64,000 nt of DNA, taken from Comamonadaceae bacterium (GTDB lineage: Bacteria; Pseudomonadota; Gammaproteobacteria; Burkholderiales; Burkholderiaceae_C). Shown in pieces: positions 38,055 through 44,010 of this stretch. The notes beneath the pieces were generated by a model that did not search any database, was not told the DNA's origin, and saw only the letters and a list, made by a program, of their open reading frames with translations. How positions within the stretch are numbered: position 1 is the stretch's first letter; every line of letters starts with the position of its first letter. The DNA is taken from NCBI GenBank assembly GCA_027484575.1, contig JAIXSQ010000007.1, forward strand, positions 1-64,000, written 5' to 3'. Position numbers and translations under genes: made by a program.

Positions 38055-38372
38055 ATGGCCGAGATGAACGGCGACGACAACCCCACCCTGGATCCCCCCA
38101 AGCCGGCCCGCACCACCGGAGCGGCCGTCGGCGCCACCGCCGGCGCCGCCACCGGTGCGGCGGCAGGCATCGCCGGCGGCCCCGTGGGCGCAGCCATCGG
38201 TGCCGTGGCTGGCGCCGTGCTGGGCGCCACCGCAGGGCTGGCCGCCAGCGGCGACGACAGCGCGCCGGGCCCGTCGACGCCGGCCGCCACCAGCAGCGGC
38301 CCCCGCGCCGAAGGCGGCGGCAACGACGATCGGCCCGACGGGCGGGATCAGGCCGGCGCGCGCTCCGCCTGA
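38055..38372 (+). CDS. Small glycine-zipper protein
   Basis: 105 residues. A central stretch (about 20-66) alternates Gly, Ala and Thr at four-residue spacing (GAAVGATAGAATGAAAG, GPVGAAIGAVAGAVLGATAG), the glycine-zipper pattern of membrane-inserting or oligomerising helices. Both ends are polar and disordered. There is no signal peptide. The 3' end overlaps the converging sensor kinase by 25 bases. Function unknown. Confidence 0.7.
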   Translation: MAEMNGDDNPTLDPPKPARTTGAAVGATAGAATGAAAGIAGGPVGAAIGAVAGAVLGATAGLAASGDDSAPGPSTPAATSSGPRAEGGGNDDRPDGRDQAGARSA

Positions 38373-39760
38373 CCGCGCCGGCCGGCGCCGTCCAGGCGCG
38401 GCTGCCGGCCCAGCGTGAAGGCGATCCGTGCGCCGCCGCCGGGGCGCAGGCTGGCCCGCACCTGGCCGCCATGCTGCTCGACCAGCCGGCGCACGATGGC
38501 CAGGCCCACGCCCGAGCCTTCGAACTCCTGGGCGCCGTGCGCGCGGTGGAACAGGTCGAACAGGCGCTCGGCCTGGTCGGCCTGGAAGCCCGGGCCGTTG
38601 TCGGCCACCTCGAACAGCGGCACGCCGTCGGGCTGCTCGCTGCGCCACACCTCGACCAGCGGCTGCTCGACGCCGATGCTGAACTTGCAGGCATTGCCCA
38701 GCAGGTTGTCGAACACCTGCCGCAGCATCATCTCGTCGCCGCGCACCGGGCCCAGCGGCGCCACCGCGAAGCGCACCTGCGGCCAGCGCACCTGCAGGTC
38801 GGCCACCACGTCGGCCACCACGCCGTCCAGCGGCACCAGGCCGGGCTGCCAGTCCAGCTGCTGGGCCCGCGTGTAGTCGAGCAGCCGGTCGAGCATGGAC
38901 AACAGCCAGCGGGCATTGCGTCCGATCCGGGCCGCCAGGTGGCGGTCGCGCTCGTCCAGGCCGGGGCGCTGGCCCAGCACGTCGGCGTAGCCCGCCATGG
39001 CCAGCACCGGGGTGCGCAGGTCGTGCGAGACGGAGTGCACGATCAGGCCCATGTCGCGGGCGCTGCCCTGCAGTTCGCGGGTGCGCTCCTCGACGCGCGC
39101 CTCGAGCTGGTCGGCCTGGGCCTGCACGACCTGCAGGCGCGCCTCGCGCTCGCGCAAGGCGTCCTGCTCCAGCCGCACCGAGCGCTCGCGCAGGTCGTCC
39201 AGGTCCTGCCGCACCAGGGTCGTGCCCAGCAGCAGCAGCACCAGCATCGTGGCCAGGGTGACGAACTCGTTGAACGGGTGCACCACCAGCTGCGGCTGCA
39301 CGTTCCAGTGCAGCAGCGACCAGCCCAGGGCGCCGTAGCCCAGCAGCGCGGCCAGCGACAGGCCCGCCGCCGCGCGGAAGCCCAGGGTCACGGCGCAGAA
39401 GCTCACGCCCACCAGCAGGCTGCCGCCCTGGGCCACGCCGATGCGCGCGGTCAGCCAGTACAGCAGCAGGCTGGGCAGCACCATCAGGATGGCCGAGGCC
39501 AGCACCACCAGCCGCACGCGGCGGCCGCGCTGCAGGCGGCGGCGCAGCAGTTCGAGCGACAGCGTGGTGACCAGCGCCGTGCCCGGCGTGAAGGTGCTGC
39601 GGGTGTAGCCGGCGCCCAGGATGACCAGGTAGGCCAGCAGGACGAAGGCCACGGTCAGGCCGATCAGGTCGCTGGCCAGCCCGGCGATGCGGCTGTCCTC
39701 GTCGTCGACCAGCCACGCCGGCGGCGGGAACAGGCGCCGCACGAGGGGTCGGATCTGCAT
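38348..39760 (-). CDS. Membrane-bound sensor histidine kinase
   Basis: 470 residues from ATG 39760; a TTG three codons upstream is less likely. Five or six membrane helices occupy residues 25-185 with little outside the bilayer, so the stimulus is probably sensed in the membrane. A coiled coil (RLEQDALREREARLQVVQAQ) leads to HisKA with His246 in SVSHDLRTP, then an HATPase (VADNGPGF, GSGVGLAIV). No receiver is attached and no regulator gene is adjacent. It converges on the glycine-zipper gene. Confidence 0.88.
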   Translation of the reverse strand: MQIRPLVRRLFPPPAWLVDDEDSRIAGLASDLIGLTVAFVLLAYLVILGAGYTRSTFTPGTALVTTLSLELLRRRLQRGRRVRLVVLASAILMVLPSLLLYWLTARIGVAQGGSLLVGVSFCAVTLGFRAAAGLSLAALLGYGALGWSLLHWNVQPQLVVHPFNEFVTLATMLVLLLLGTTLVRQDLDDLRERSVRLEQDALREREARLQVVQAQADQLEARVEERTRELQGSARDMGLIVHSVSHDLRTPVLAMAGYADVLGQRPGLDERDRHLAARIGRNARWLLSMLDRLLDYTRAQQLDWQPGLVPLDGVVADVVADLQVRWPQVRFAVAPLGPVRGDEMMLRQVFDNLLGNACKFSIGVEQPLVEVWRSEQPDGVPLFEVADNGPGFQADQAERLFDLFHRAHGAQEFEGSGVGLAIVRRLVEQHGGQVRASLRPGGGARIAFTLGRQPRLDGAGRRGQAERAPA

Positions 39761-39875
39761 GGGGGACAACGCGTGGACTGCGGTTGAGCTGGGGAGGGCG
39801 ACCCATTGTGTCAGCCGTGGCGCTGCCGCGCCATGCCCCGGCGCCAGGGGCCCGCAACCGGCCCCGGCCCGGGGC

Positions 39876-40235
39876 TCAGGGCGCCTCGGTGCGCACCGAC
39901 AGCGGCTCCAGCGTGGCGGGGTCCAGCTCGATGCGCAGCAGCCGGGCCACCGGGCCGCTGGGCAGCTCGCGCGGGACCTGGCTGCGTTCGGGGTAGACGT
40001 TGCCCAGCAGCGGCCCCTCGCGCGGATGCCGCACCACCGGCAGCCAGCTGACCACCGGGCGCGGCTTGCGCCGGAACCGCAGGCCGGGCGCCGCCCGCAC
40101 CAGCGTGGCCACGGCCACGCCGGGGTCCATGTCGGTCCAGCCGTCCTCGTTGGGCGTGACCTGCACCACCTCGCCGTCCAGGACGGCCCGGATCAGCTCG
40201 GCATTGGGGACGGCGGGGGACGGCTCGGGTTCCAT
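39876..40235 (-). CDS. Hypothetical protein
   Basis: 119 residues from ATG 40235. I do not recognise it. It is a soluble, Pro-rich protein with a central segment (DGWTDMDPGVAVATLVRAAPGLRFRRKPRP split by charged turns) and no cysteines. It follows the trehalose synthase gene on the same strand after 87 bases and could be co-transcribed with it. Codon use is normal for the region. Confidence 0.6.
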   Translation of the reverse strand: MEPEPSPAVPNAELIRAVLDGEVVQVTPNEDGWTDMDPGVAVATLVRAAPGLRFRRKPRPVVSWLPVVRHPREGPLLGNVYPERSQVPRELPSGPVARLLRIELDPATLEPLSVRTEAP

Positions 40236-40322
40236 GCGCCGCGATGGTGGGCCAGCGACGCGCCGCCCGGCGCGCCGCCGCAACGCCTCGAAGCACTCCT
40301 TGCGTCCGGATGCCGGCCGCGT

Positions 40323-42569
40323 TCACGCCGCCCGGGCGTCGCTGTGCCGGCGCAGCCGCTGGGACACCCGCTCGCGCAGGCGCCAGCGGGCCGCGTCGGT
40401 CAGCATGTGGCCGGCCCAGCGGTAGACGTTGTATTCCTGGACCGCGCTGCGCAGCGCCGCCATGCGCTCGCGCTGCTCGGCCGCCGGCATGGTCAGCGCC
40501 CGGTGCAGCGCATCGGCCACCTCCTCCACGTGGTAGGGATTGACCACCAGCGCCTCGGCCAGCTCGCGCGCGGCGCCGGCATAGCGGCTGAGCACCAGCA
40601 CGCCCTGCTCGTCGTCGCGGGCGGCCACGAACTCCTTGCACACCAGGTTCATGCCGTCGTGCAGGCTGGTGACCACGCAGGCGTCGGCGGCCCGGTACAG
40701 CCGCTGCACCGCCTCGGGCCCGTGGTGCTGCGCCAGCAGACGCACCGGCGCATGCCCGCCGGTGGAAAAGCGCTGGTTGATCCGCTCGGCCACCGCATGG
40801 ATGCGCTGCTGGAAGGCCTGGTACTCCTCCAGCTCGCCGCGGGTGGGCGCGGCCACCTGCACGAAGGTGAAGCGGCCCTGCCATTGCGGATGCTTTTCCA
40901 GCAGCCGCTCGACCGCGTGCAGCCGCTCGAGGATGCCCTTGGTGTAGTCGAAGCGGTCCACGCCCACGGCGATGCGGTGGTGCGCGGGGATGCCCAGCTG
41001 GGCGCCCAGCGCGCGCCGGCAGTCGGCGGGCGAGGCCCAGCCGCCCTGCTCCGCCGCCGTCGGCCAGGCGATGGAGATCGGGTAGGCCTCCACCAGCGTC
41101 TGCTCGCCGCGGAACGACACCGAGGAATGCTCGTGCTCGATGCGCGCCTCGAGGTTGCGGTCCACCGTCTCCAGGAAGTTCTTGCAGTGCCCCGGCGTGT
41201 GGAAGCCCATGATCGTGGAGCCCAGCATTCCCTCCAGCAGCTCCTGGGTCCAGGGGCAGATGCCGAAGGACTCGGGGTTGGGCCAGGGGATGTGCCAGAA
41301 GGTCAGGATGGTCGCGCGCGGCAGCCGGCGCCGCACCATGGCCGGCAGCAGGGCGAAGTGGTAGTCCTGCACCAGCACCACCGGGTCGTCGCTGCGGGCC
41401 TCGGCCACCACCGCGTCGGCGAACAGCTGGTTGACCGCCTTGTAGGCCTCCCAGTCGGACTCGCGGAACACCGGCCGCACGTGGGCCACGTGGCACAGCG
41501 GCCACAGGCCCTCGTTGGCGAAGCCGTAGTAGTAGCCCTGCTCCTGCTGCGGCGTCAGCCACAGGCGCCGAAGCCGGTACTCGGACTGCCCCGGCGGCAG
41601 CGCCACGCGGTCGTGCCGGTCCACCGTGTCGCGGTCGGCGCTGCCGCTGCCGTGCGCGATCCAGGTGCCCGAGCAGGCGCGCATCACGGGTTCGACCGCC
41701 GTCACCAGGCCGCTGGCCGGCCGCCGCACCACCACCTCGCCGCGCGCGTCGCGGTCGTGGATGTAGGGCTCGCGGTTGGACACGACGATCACCTCGTCGC
41801 CGCGCAACTGGCTGCGCAGCAGGGCCTGCAGCCGCGGCGCATCCCAGCCGCCCTCGTGCACGCGGCTGCGCCGCAGCTGGTCGTCCAGGTCGCGCAGCCG
41901 CTCGCGCAGTTCGGTGGCGATCGGCTCGAGCTCGGGCGACGGCGGCGCCATCGGCCGCAGCAGGCCCTCGCCGCGCAGCAGCGCCCGGGTGCCGCGGATC
42001 CAGCCGCGCCAGCTCAGCTGGGCCACCACCATGGTCACCAACGCCATCAGCACGCCCAGCCCGGTGACCAGCGCCACCAGCCAGCGCCGCGTGTCCTGGC
42101 TGCGGCGGTCGATGAAGCTCAGGTCGTGCAGCAGCACCAGGTGCCCCGTGGGCCCGGCCTCGGCCTGCACCGGATGCATGCTCAGGTGCACCGGCCCGCC
42201 CTCGATGCGCAGCCGCGGCTCGGGCTCGGCCGCCACCCGCGCCGCCTCCTCGCAGTCCAGGCTGGGGGGCATCAGCAGTGTGCGCACGGCCATGCGGCCG
42301 TCGGGCGCGCACCAGCCCATGGCGACCAGGCGCTCGTCCTGCACGGTGCGGCCGAACAGCGCCTGCAAGCGCCGCAGGTTCGCGTCCTGCACCGCCTGCG
42401 CGACGCTCTCGGACATGGAGTTGGCCACCAGCGCGCCGCGCAGGTTCAGGTCGCGCGCGAACCAGCGCAGCGTGAGGCGGTCCATCACCGGCACCGCCAG
42501 CCACGCGGCGGCGGCCAGGACCAGCACCAGGGGGACCAGGAATCGCAGTTGCAGGGGGAGTGACTTCAT
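40323..42569 (-). CDS. otsA: Trehalose-6-phosphate synthase (GT20) with N-terminal sensor-like membrane domain
   Basis: 748 residues, far longer than soluble OtsA (about 470). TM1 (9-27), an extracytoplasmic stretch (28-160), TM2 (163-184) and a HAMP-like helical linker (185-250) precede the catalytic domain, which begins near 258 (VIVVSNREPYIHD). GT20 landmarks follow: VQDYHFALLP, FWHIPWPNPE, VGVDRFDYTKGI and SLHDGMNLVCKEF. It should make trehalose 6-phosphate from a nucleotide-glucose and glucose 6-phosphate at the inner membrane. GAAGG precedes the ATG. No otsB phosphatase is nearby. Confidence 0.9.
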   Translation of the reverse strand: MKSLPLQLRFLVPLVLVLAAAAWLAVPVMDRLTLRWFARDLNLRGALVANSMSESVAQAVQDANLRRLQALFGRTVQDERLVAMGWCAPDGRMAVRTLLMPPSLDCEEAARVAAEPEPRLRIEGGPVHLSMHPVQAEAGPTGHLVLLHDLSFIDRRSQDTRRWLVALVTGLGVLMALVTMVVAQLSWRGWIRGTRALLRGEGLLRPMAPPSPELEPIATELRERLRDLDDQLRRSRVHEGGWDAPRLQALLRSQLRGDEVIVVSNREPYIHDRDARGEVVVRRPASGLVTAVEPVMRACSGTWIAHGSGSADRDTVDRHDRVALPPGQSEYRLRRLWLTPQQEQGYYYGFANEGLWPLCHVAHVRPVFRESDWEAYKAVNQLFADAVVAEARSDDPVVLVQDYHFALLPAMVRRRLPRATILTFWHIPWPNPESFGICPWTQELLEGMLGSTIMGFHTPGHCKNFLETVDRNLEARIEHEHSSVSFRGEQTLVEAYPISIAWPTAAEQGGWASPADCRRALGAQLGIPAHHRIAVGVDRFDYTKGILERLHAVERLLEKHPQWQGRFTFVQVAAPTRGELEEYQAFQQRIHAVAERINQRFSTGGHAPVRLLAQHHGPEAVQRLYRAADACVVTSLHDGMNLVCKEFVAARDDEQGVLVLSRYAGAARELAEALVVNPYHVEEVADALHRALTMPAAEQRERMAALRSAVQEYNVYRWAGHMLTDAARWRLRERVSQRLRRHSDARAA

Positions 42570-42765
42570 CGTGCCTTCGTGCGGGCCCGCAGGCCCGGGA
42601 ACCCGCCCCTGCGGCGGGGAAGGCGGATTCTGGCGAGGAACACCGCGCGCCGGAGCGCGACAGTGCAACCGCAAGCAACCTTCAACCCGACGTTGGAGCG
42701 CGGCCGCGGGTTGTTCGGCCGGCCGCCAGCACGCGCGGCGGGCGGGGCCTAGGATCCGCCCGCCC

Positions 42766-44010
42766 ATGCCCGCCCTCGCCGCCCCTGCTGCCGATCCCGT
42801 CGACGCCCCTGCGGCCACATGGCCCGACGGCCTGCCGCCCACCCGCGCGGCCGCGCTGGCGCGCATCGCCCGCGTGCAACCGGCCGCGTACGCCCGCACC
42901 CGCAACCACCTGGACGGTGCCGTCACCGGCCTGTCGCCCTACCTGACCCACGGGCTGGTCACGCTGCCCGAGGTCCTGGCCGGCGTGCTCGCGCGCGGCC
43001 CGCTGCCGGTGACGCACAAGCTGGTCGACGAGCTGGGCTGGCGCGCCTACTTCCGCCACGTGTGGGCCCACCGCGGCGACGCGATCCTGCAGTCGCTGCA
43101 CGGCGGCCCCCGGCCCGAGGCCGCCTACGCCCGCACGCTGCCGGCCGACATCCGCGAGGGCCGCACCGGCGTGCCGGTGATCGACGAGGCGGTGCGCACG
43201 CTCCACGCCACCGGCACGCTGCACAACCATGCCCGCATGTGGCTGGCCAGCTACGTGGTGCACCTGCGCCAGGTGCACTGGCGCGCCGGCGCCGACTGGC
43301 TGGTGGCGCACCTGCTCGACGGCGACCTGGCCAGCAACCACCTGAGCTGGCAGTGGATCGCCGGCACGGGCAGCCACAAGCCCTACCTGTTCGACGCGCA
43401 GAACGTGGCCCGGTTCGCACCGCCGGCCTGGCACAGCCCGGGCACGGTGGTGGACCGGGGCTACGAGGAACTCGAGGCCATCGCGCACGGGCGCCTGCGC
43501 CTGGCCCATCCGCGGCCGCTGCCGCCGCCCGCGGGCCTGGCCGAACCCGTGCTGCTGCCGGCCCCGCCCGCGGCGCCCGGGCTGGACGCCCCCGGCCCCG
43601 CCGGCGCCGCCGGCCTGCAGGGCCGCCACGTCTGGCTGGTGCACCCCTGGGCGCTGCGGCCTCCCCCGCCCGGGCTGCCGCCGGGCACGCTGGTGCTGGG
43701 CGTCTACCCGCGCGAGGTGCACGCGGCCTGGCCCTGGCCGGCCGCGCGCTGGCACTGGGTGGACACGGCCATGGCCGCGGTCGCGCCCACGCGCTGGCTC
43801 GTCGATGCCGCGACGCTGCAGGCCGCGCTGGCCGGCGCGGCCTCGGTGCGCACCGCCGATGACCCGCACATCGGCGGCTGGCTGCCGCGCGCCGTGCAGC
43901 GGCTGCCTGCGCCGGCGCTGTTCCCGGCGGTGGACCGCCCGTGCAGCAGCTACTCGCAGTGGCGCACGCGCGCGCTGCGCGGGCTGCACGACGCGGGGGA
44001 GCTGCTGTGA
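42766..44010 (+). CDS. Photolyase/cryptochrome-like protein with FAD domain first and alpha/beta domain last
   Basis: 414 residues. The first about 270 residues are the photolyase FAD-binding domain: TGLSPYLTHG, DELGWRAYFRHVW, GRTGVPVIDEAVRTLHATGTLHNHARMWLAS and NHLSWQWIAGTG. Normally an alpha/beta domain of about 200 residues precedes this; here only some 45 do. Instead an alpha/beta-like segment (GRHVWLVHPWALRP, TLVLGVYPRE) follows at 285-414 and ends in SYSQWRTRAL, like the end of the usual N-terminal domain. The order looks circularly permuted. The stop overlaps the next gene's GTG. Confidence 0.78.
   Translation: MPALAAPAADPVDAPAATWPDGLPPTRAAALARIARVQPAAYARTRNHLDGAVTGLSPYLTHGLVTLPEVLAGVLARGPLPVTHKLVDELGWRAYFRHVWAHRGDAILQSLHGGPRPEAAYARTLPADIREGRTGVPVIDEAVRTLHATGTLHNHARMWLASYVVHLRQVHWRAGADWLVAHLLDGDLASNHLSWQWIAGTGSHKPYLFDAQNVARFAPPAWHSPGTVVDRGYEELEAIAHGRLRLAHPRPLPPPAGLAEPVLLPAPPAAPGLDAPGPAGAAGLQGRHVWLVHPWALRPPPPGLPPGTLVLGVYPREVHAAWPWPAARWHWVDTAMAAVAPTRWLVDAATLQAALAGAASVRTADDPHIGGWLPRAVQRLPAPALFPAVDRPCSSYSQWRTRALRGLHDAGELL

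Follow-up and report, generated by a model that had tools for sequence, protein, structure and literature searches.

The window analysed here, a stretch of 64,000 nucleotides of a Comamonadaceae genome, carries on its minus strand an open reading frame at 40323-42569 that runs from ATG to stop and encodes 748 amino acids. A Shine-Dalgarno-like GAAGG (42574-42578) ends 4 bases ahead of the ATG; scans for promoters and terminators found none. Conservation over 79 aligned proteins, comprising the window protein and 78 uncut frames (loci L033 and L061, cut by contig ends, were excluded), rules out a chance or wrong frame. The product is a fusion in which a first membrane helix (TM1), about 131 extracytoplasmic residues, a second membrane helix (TM2) and a helix-loop-helix precede an intact GT20 domain, as follows.

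40323-42569, minus strand: fused trehalose-6-phosphate synthase gene (748 aa; frame, alignment with 78 homologues, Shine-Dalgarno-like GAAGG).
42480-42545, minus strand: TM1, residues 9-30, at the start of a long helix 4-61 (hydropathy, AlphaFold2 helix; P13 invariant).
42087-42479, minus strand: putative extracytoplasmic sensor domain of PDC/Cache fold, residues 31-161 (AlphaFold2, Foldseek, VIA-align, conservation; invariant W36, D40, R44, R80, C87, C106 and D149).
42012-42086, minus strand: TM2, residues 162-186 (hydropathy, AlphaFold2 helix 151-199).
41859-42011, minus strand: HAMP-like helix-loop-helix, residues 187-237 (AlphaFold2 at low pLDDT, hhalign; no Pfam HAMP).
Within 41859-42011, minus strand: parts of the HAMP-like segment, namely a helix to residue 199, a loop 200-214 and a helix 215-237 (AlphaFold2).
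41796-41846, minus strand: pre-catalytic helix, residues 242-258 (W242 and L247 invariant; matched in sensor-less relatives too).
40392-41795, minus strand: GT20 catalytic domain, residues 259-726 (Pfam, PDB relatives, site residues).

Kyte-Doolittle windows of the window protein exceed 1.6 only at residues 3-34 and 162-187, indicating two membrane helices. By the same hydropathy measure, 77 of the 79 homologues have exactly two hydrophobic segments before GT20, the exceptions being L032, which is without the 25 columns of TM2, and L051, with three segments. L032 is a 706-residue homologue from a metagenome-assembled genome (MAG), and its missing TM2 columns reflect either a real deletion or an assembly error.

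The catalytic part matches the Pfam GT20 family (PF00982) at residues 259-726 with 412 bits (E 4.2e-123, cut-off 32.5 bits). For the window protein Pfam gave glycosyltransferase families and no others: two further matches of this kind were both under their cut-offs, and HisKA and HATPase domains were absent. Sixteen chosen positions, which we take to be donor- and acceptor-site residues (R266, G287, Y347, W356, D402, H426, R539, K544, D638-V643, K645 and E646), are identical in 79/79 homologues and in the soluble OtsA of the window's own genome; position 597 is I, V or L across the homologues. The nearest solved structures, by sequence as well as by fold, are trehalose-6-phosphate synthases, and like OtsA of E. 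coli (1gz5, 1uqu) and M. thermoresistibile (5jij) the fusion has a full GT20 domain. While it shares its site residues with the soluble OtsA of the same genome, the latter has 472 residues and consists of GT20 alone, whereas in the fusion the catalytic domain is preceded by an N-terminal stretch of about 258 residues that includes the sensor-like membrane module. Counted by hand in the alignment, the three donor-preference positions named in an excerpt of PMC6879718 correspond to V572, H616 and A620 of the fusion. An earlier sequence-only reading of this DNA had proposed a gene at these coordinates with two membrane helices, about 130 residues between them and an intact OtsA-type GT20 domain; frame and hydropathy confirm the first three points, and the Pfam match together with the 16 invariant site positions supports the last.

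The usual outputs of PDC/Cache-fold sensors are kinases, chemotaxis or enzymes of second-messenger turnover. The AlphaFold2 model of the full protein, built on the 79-row alignment (mean pLDDT 88.6, pTM 0.70), places helices at 4-61 and 65-78, five strands over 83-149 with a helix at 106-113, and a helix at 151-199. This arrangement, with a long N-terminal helix and a five-strand sheet between two transmembrane helices, is a predicted PDC/Cache fold; the N-terminal part modelled alone gave the same fold, with ten-residue pLDDT means of at least 95 over residues 41-150. In a VIA-align comparison with the PDB, the N-terminal model matched WalK (9a5d, itself an integrative model) with Z 12.0 over 193 aligned residues (rmsd 4.2), followed by WalK 4ywz (Z 11.5), CitA 8biy (Z 11.2, rmsd 2.6), LuxQ 3c30 (Z 10.9), CusS (Z 10.5) and DcuS (Z 9.9). 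Nearly all of the best 50 structural neighbours are extracytoplasmic sensor domains; middling Z scores are common with this measure, and the argument rests on the shared kind, length and layout of the neighbours. Foldseek against the PDB returned two matches with E below 0.001, WalK (9a5d, 3.6e-5) and KinD (8.6e-4), and the next-ranked were the CitA and DctB sensor domains. The seven sensor residues listed above are identical in 79/79 proteins, unchanged when an 80th row was added, and the invariance of C87 and C106 suggests that they may form a disulfide. Among the relatives, L143, which shares a genome with L011 as its second copy, is a full-length fusion with a proline-rich insertion in the sensor domain, before the last conserved strand.

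By sequence, the N-terminal part has no significant solved relative, the best match (E 0.4) being a designed protein, and with matches admitted up to E 10 Pfam assigned no Cache, CHASE or sensor family to the window protein. Over the 79 members, Pfam matched CHASE4 in five (best E 0.0027), Sensor PF13796 in one (0.0039), dCache_3 in one (0.023) and CusS in one (0.21). The commonest match was an implausible one, Adeno_E3B in 22 of the 79 (0.00029), which marks the noise level of such weak Pfam matches. On the model, the N-terminal domain is thus of PDC/Cache fold, outside any Pfam Cache family.

Model confidence is lowest in the linker behind TM2, where ten-residue pLDDT means are 48-64 over residues 191-240. 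The Pfam HAMP family (PF00672) did not match the window protein, and HAMP was absent among 25 of the 42 Pfam families matched by any of the 79 members; elsewhere in the same genome there are 35 Pfam HAMP matches of up to 55.9 bits. When the linker alignment was compared by hhalign with 23 HAMPs of the same genome, the match had a probability of 7-8% (E about 0.005) and a score of 15.8, against a top score of 14.9 in 100 column-shuffled linker controls. The whole N-terminal alignment matched at the same place with a probability of 1.2% (E 0.045). The register is that of a HAMP domain, with G200 on the G of GDL and E213 on the E of DEI, and both residues are at least 90% conserved. Because the match is weak, though in the right register, and Pfam gave no HAMP, we term the linker HAMP-like and do not accept it as a classical HAMP. 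The layout of a sensor kinase, which the sequence-only reading had seen in this protein, is supported by the PDC/Cache fold of the model and by a helix-loop-helix of HAMP proportions after TM2, modelled there at low confidence; its HAMP-like linker stands as a weak profile-profile similarity and not as a Pfam match. The window's genome also has an apparent poly-HAMP protein (C10:225158-228902; loci L090-L098, L101, L103, L105, L107 and L108) whose two open frames, of 1985 and 2970 aa, contain 14 Pfam HAMPs.

In the model, the fusion has the same order of TM1, PDC fold, TM2 and helix pair as the PDC/Cache sensor kinases WalK, CitA, DcuS, DctB and LuxQ. It differs from them in lacking a kinase domain and Pfam Cache and HAMP matches, and its output is a biosynthetic glycosyltransferase. 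We consider it probable that the fusion is a transmembrane receptor enzyme, that is, a trehalose-6-phosphate synthase under transmembrane control. The site residues, the two helices, the modelled sensor fold, the conservation within one clade, the linkage to OtsB and the status of the fusion as the sole GT20 in many genomes, the last three described below, support this reading. If the likeness to sensor kinases in fold and layout holds for the mechanism, the periplasmic PDC/Cache-fold domain (residues 31-161) would read a signal from outside, which is probably either a small ligand or the physical condition of the envelope, and a change in this domain would shift TM2 and, through the HAMP-like helix pair, alter the activity of the cytoplasmic OtsA-type GT20 domain. 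The parts that such signal transfer would use are present and conserved. The GT20 domain would join nucleotide-glucose and glucose-6-phosphate to trehalose-6-phosphate, from which OtsB would then take off the phosphate. The membrane topology, dimerisation, an effect of the sensor on activity, the product and the identity of the signal are inferred.

A survey of relatives for the same fusion, which the sequence-only reading had proposed, recovered at least 80 fusion loci with 51-73% identity to the window protein (at least 586 pattern matches in the genome scan, of which 580 encoded some relative). By record labels, the loci belong mainly to Burkholderiales and to relatives of Geobacter and Desulfuromonas; further labels, on MAG loci, are Myxococcota, Bdellovibrionota, Gemmatimonadota, Acidobacteriota and Cloacimonadota. 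This spread over labels of several phyla rules out a one-off assembly fusion.

A GT20 tree of 98 rows was built by a quick method with SH-aLRT support only, and three of its end branches are long. In this tree the clade that contains the fusions is split from the eight soluble rows with a support of 99. The label "fused" requires 3 changes, of which the starred branches force 2, compared with 15.1 in shuffles; this is consistent with a module gained once and lost twice. The first loss would be a clade with a single transmembrane segment, made up of six rows of one genus (L133-L138) and a copy on plasmid pAA02 of Aminobacter aminovorans (L139). The second would be L116, which has no hydrophobic segment and whose place in the tree, on a long branch, is unsure. 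A short sensor-less copy outside the tree, L142, likewise has no hydrophobic segment. Distances between the sensor parts track those between the GT20 parts (Mantel r 0.715, with 0.116 the highest of 999 permutations); this tracking shows shared descent, and taken alone it does not tell sensing from tethering.

The single-TM enzymes L133-L139 share the GT20 clade and the pre-catalytic helix of the fusion and differ from it in having one hydrophobic segment and no stretch of PDC length ahead of GT20. With one TM in these relatives and none in L116 and L142, catalysis in the fusion clade may not need the sensor. These single-TM relatives make tethering a serious alternative and the main rival: the N-terminus would serve only to keep the enzyme at the inner membrane, close to the envelope, to transporters or to OtsB, with the PDC-fold domain as a structural or protein-binding element and no switching. 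That the one-genus relatives (six examined of eight matched) and the Aminobacter plasmid copy keep one hydrophobic N-terminal segment after losing the sensor agrees with an anchoring role. A single TM would suffice for an anchor, however, and the seven invariant polar, aromatic or cysteine residues of the sensor (79/79) exceed what an anchor needs. Moreover, L116 and L142 do without any hydrophobic segment, so the anchor is dispensable as well. We regard tethering alone as unlikely.

How often the fusion is a genome's sole GT20 was read from several samples. In a sample of 80 genomes from the window's family, GT20 occurs in 35 and the complete sensor module in eight, a ninth match (G006) covering the pre-catalytic helix only. 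The fusion is the only GT20 in six of these eight; the other two, the window's genome and G056, carry a soluble-type OtsA as well. In G056 the fusion gene (L126, C1:3880965-3882352) is split over two frames. Across 249 genomes of the phylum, 13 had a module match, of which four, the window's own included, were full or nearly so; eight others covered the pre-catalytic part only, and all came from the single-TM genus mentioned above. Of 300 genomes of the order, 21 have the module, again with the window's own included, and four more gave a weak partial match. In all 20 of the other order genomes the module continues in frame into GT20, which is the only GT20 in 19 of them. From the 80 genomes behind the named loci we picked 27, mostly isolates: 16 have one GT20 only, six (Ramlibacter and Caenimonas) also have a soluble-OtsA-type match, four have two long frames (the one second copy that was read is a full fusion), and one has two long frames and a short sensor-less frame. 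Across the combined samples, 39 of 53 genomes have no GT20 besides the fusion, where two genomes that recur between samples by their coordinates (G327 = G062 and G345 = G576) are counted once.

These counts bear on another explanation, in which the membrane domain senses but signals to a partner, and the GT20 domain serves mainly as a scaffold or reporter with catalysis secondary. A precedent exists in the proposal, made in the title and opening abstract of PMC5685639 and mentioned in an excerpt of PMC6879718, that OtsA acts as an osmotic stress sensor in Arthrobacter. Since the window's genome and the six Ramlibacter and Caenimonas genomes have a second, soluble-type OtsA, they may not need the fusion for catalysis. 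Nevertheless, the site residues are invariant in 79/79 proteins, including those from genomes with a second OtsA, and in the 39 of 53 genomes no other GT20 is at hand. We consider signalling to a partner improbable, and retain a catalytically active receptor enzyme as the preferred reading.

The gene neighbourhood also points to trehalose synthesis. By tblastn, OtsB is present in 69/80 loci, directly downstream on the same strand in 66, and GH15 in 45/80, where each cluster was named by the Pfam result of a single member; that OtsB adjoins the fusion in most relatives is a further likeness to OtsA. The 11 loci without OtsB are L003-L006, L019, L027 and L029 (Ramlibacter by name or tree place), L035, L042, L046 and L067, and L006 and L046 end soon after the fusion gene. 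Within the 64-kb window, neither OtsB nor GH15 was found at E 1e-8. Its genome (4.40 Mb, 99.47% complete) has a cluster of otsB, GH15 and soluble otsA elsewhere (C7), and on this ground the fusion is probably a second, separately controlled synthase here.

A conserved operon of the fusion with the genes next to it in the window was not supported. About 40 bases after the synthase gene, a candidate frame of 135 aa (39876-40283, minus strand) matched neither a Pfam nor an NCBIfam family, and tblastn did not find it in any of the 80 loci. The following histidine kinase (38348-39769, on the same strand as the synthase) has HisKA and HATPase_c domains and an N-terminal half that is hydrophobic by eye; it gave weak tblastn matches only, at 26-33% identity in 4/80 loci. 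The divergent neighbour (42769-44010, plus strand), with the FAD-binding domain of DNA photolyase as its sole Pfam match, had no tblastn match in the 80 loci.

The NCBIfam scores put the fusion in a divergent TPS-like GT20 subfamily, not assigned to the OtsA equivalog, since it does not reach the cut-off of TIGR02400 (433.6 bits against 564.85). A product other than trehalose-6-phosphate, such as a glucosylglycerol-type phosphate, would agree with that and with a score under the cut-off of the bifunctional TPS/TPP model (482.4 bits against 634), but is very improbable, as the glucosylglycerol-phosphate synthase model scores far lower (297.9 bits, cut-off 569), the site residues are kept and OtsB accompanies most of the loci.

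The closest parallels among the papers covered are the Arthrobacter OtsA, an enzyme of trehalose synthesis linked with sensing, for which the title and opening abstract lines (PMC5685639) mention no membrane domain, and mycobacterial OtsA, described in an excerpt of PMC6879718 as being under allosteric control by metabolites. No description of a sensor-GT20 fusion was found in the openly licensed literature, as judged by titles and the start of abstracts; what appears undescribed is the combination of a known enzyme family with a known sensor fold. We tentatively suggest, at slightly less than even odds, that such fusions are widespread receptor enzymes of the one-component kind. Their periplasmic PDC sensor would directly control how a compatible solute is made, and the sole trehalose-6-phosphate synthase of many bacteria would itself be a transmembrane receptor, acting with neither transcription nor a kinase. 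If so, many bacteria, among them Burkholderiales and relatives of Geobacter, would set trehalose synthesis by an extracytoplasmic cue, a glycosyltransferase output would place an osmoprotectant under direct post-translational control from outside, and the proteins annotated as plain trehalose-6-phosphate synthase would include a class of receptors.

As to the cue, osmotic stress is a reasonable guess, given that trehalose acts as an osmoprotectant and that 6/80 loci contain a gene for an MscS-type channel (Pfam on one member, the rest by BLAST cluster), which is thin evidence. A ligand is as likely, judging from the related fold of CitA, which binds citrate according to PDB titles.

We also considered whether the module is shared with other outputs, and rejected this, as the regions viewed from the order genomes showed only weak partial matches, to GGDEF/EAL or permease-like proteins. 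The module profile weakly finds membrane GGDEF/EAL receptors, in one of which a Pfam dCache_3 ends within the matched stretch. The 25 matches in the 300 order genomes include the four weak partial ones (E 6e-5 to 0.0045), which are not GT20 fusions where seen: of the four (G599, G621, G365 and G571) the first three were viewed, and among these a single genus supplies two GGDEF/EAL proteins, identified by Pfam in one case and by eye in the other, while the third protein is permease-like by eye. A match from the phylum genomes (G296) is also a GGDEF/EAL protein.

Among plasmid records, 355 had a match, none of which spans 80% of the query. The contig of L045, labelled Cloacimonadota, carries a synthase nearly identical to that of Geobacter UBA4074 (L046; end branches 0.022 and 0) and is possibly misbinned. 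In the tree, the Arenimonas copy (Lysobacteraceae, L028) falls among rows from Burkholderiales; frames of the OtsB and GH15 clusters lie upstream of it, and a transfer is possible.
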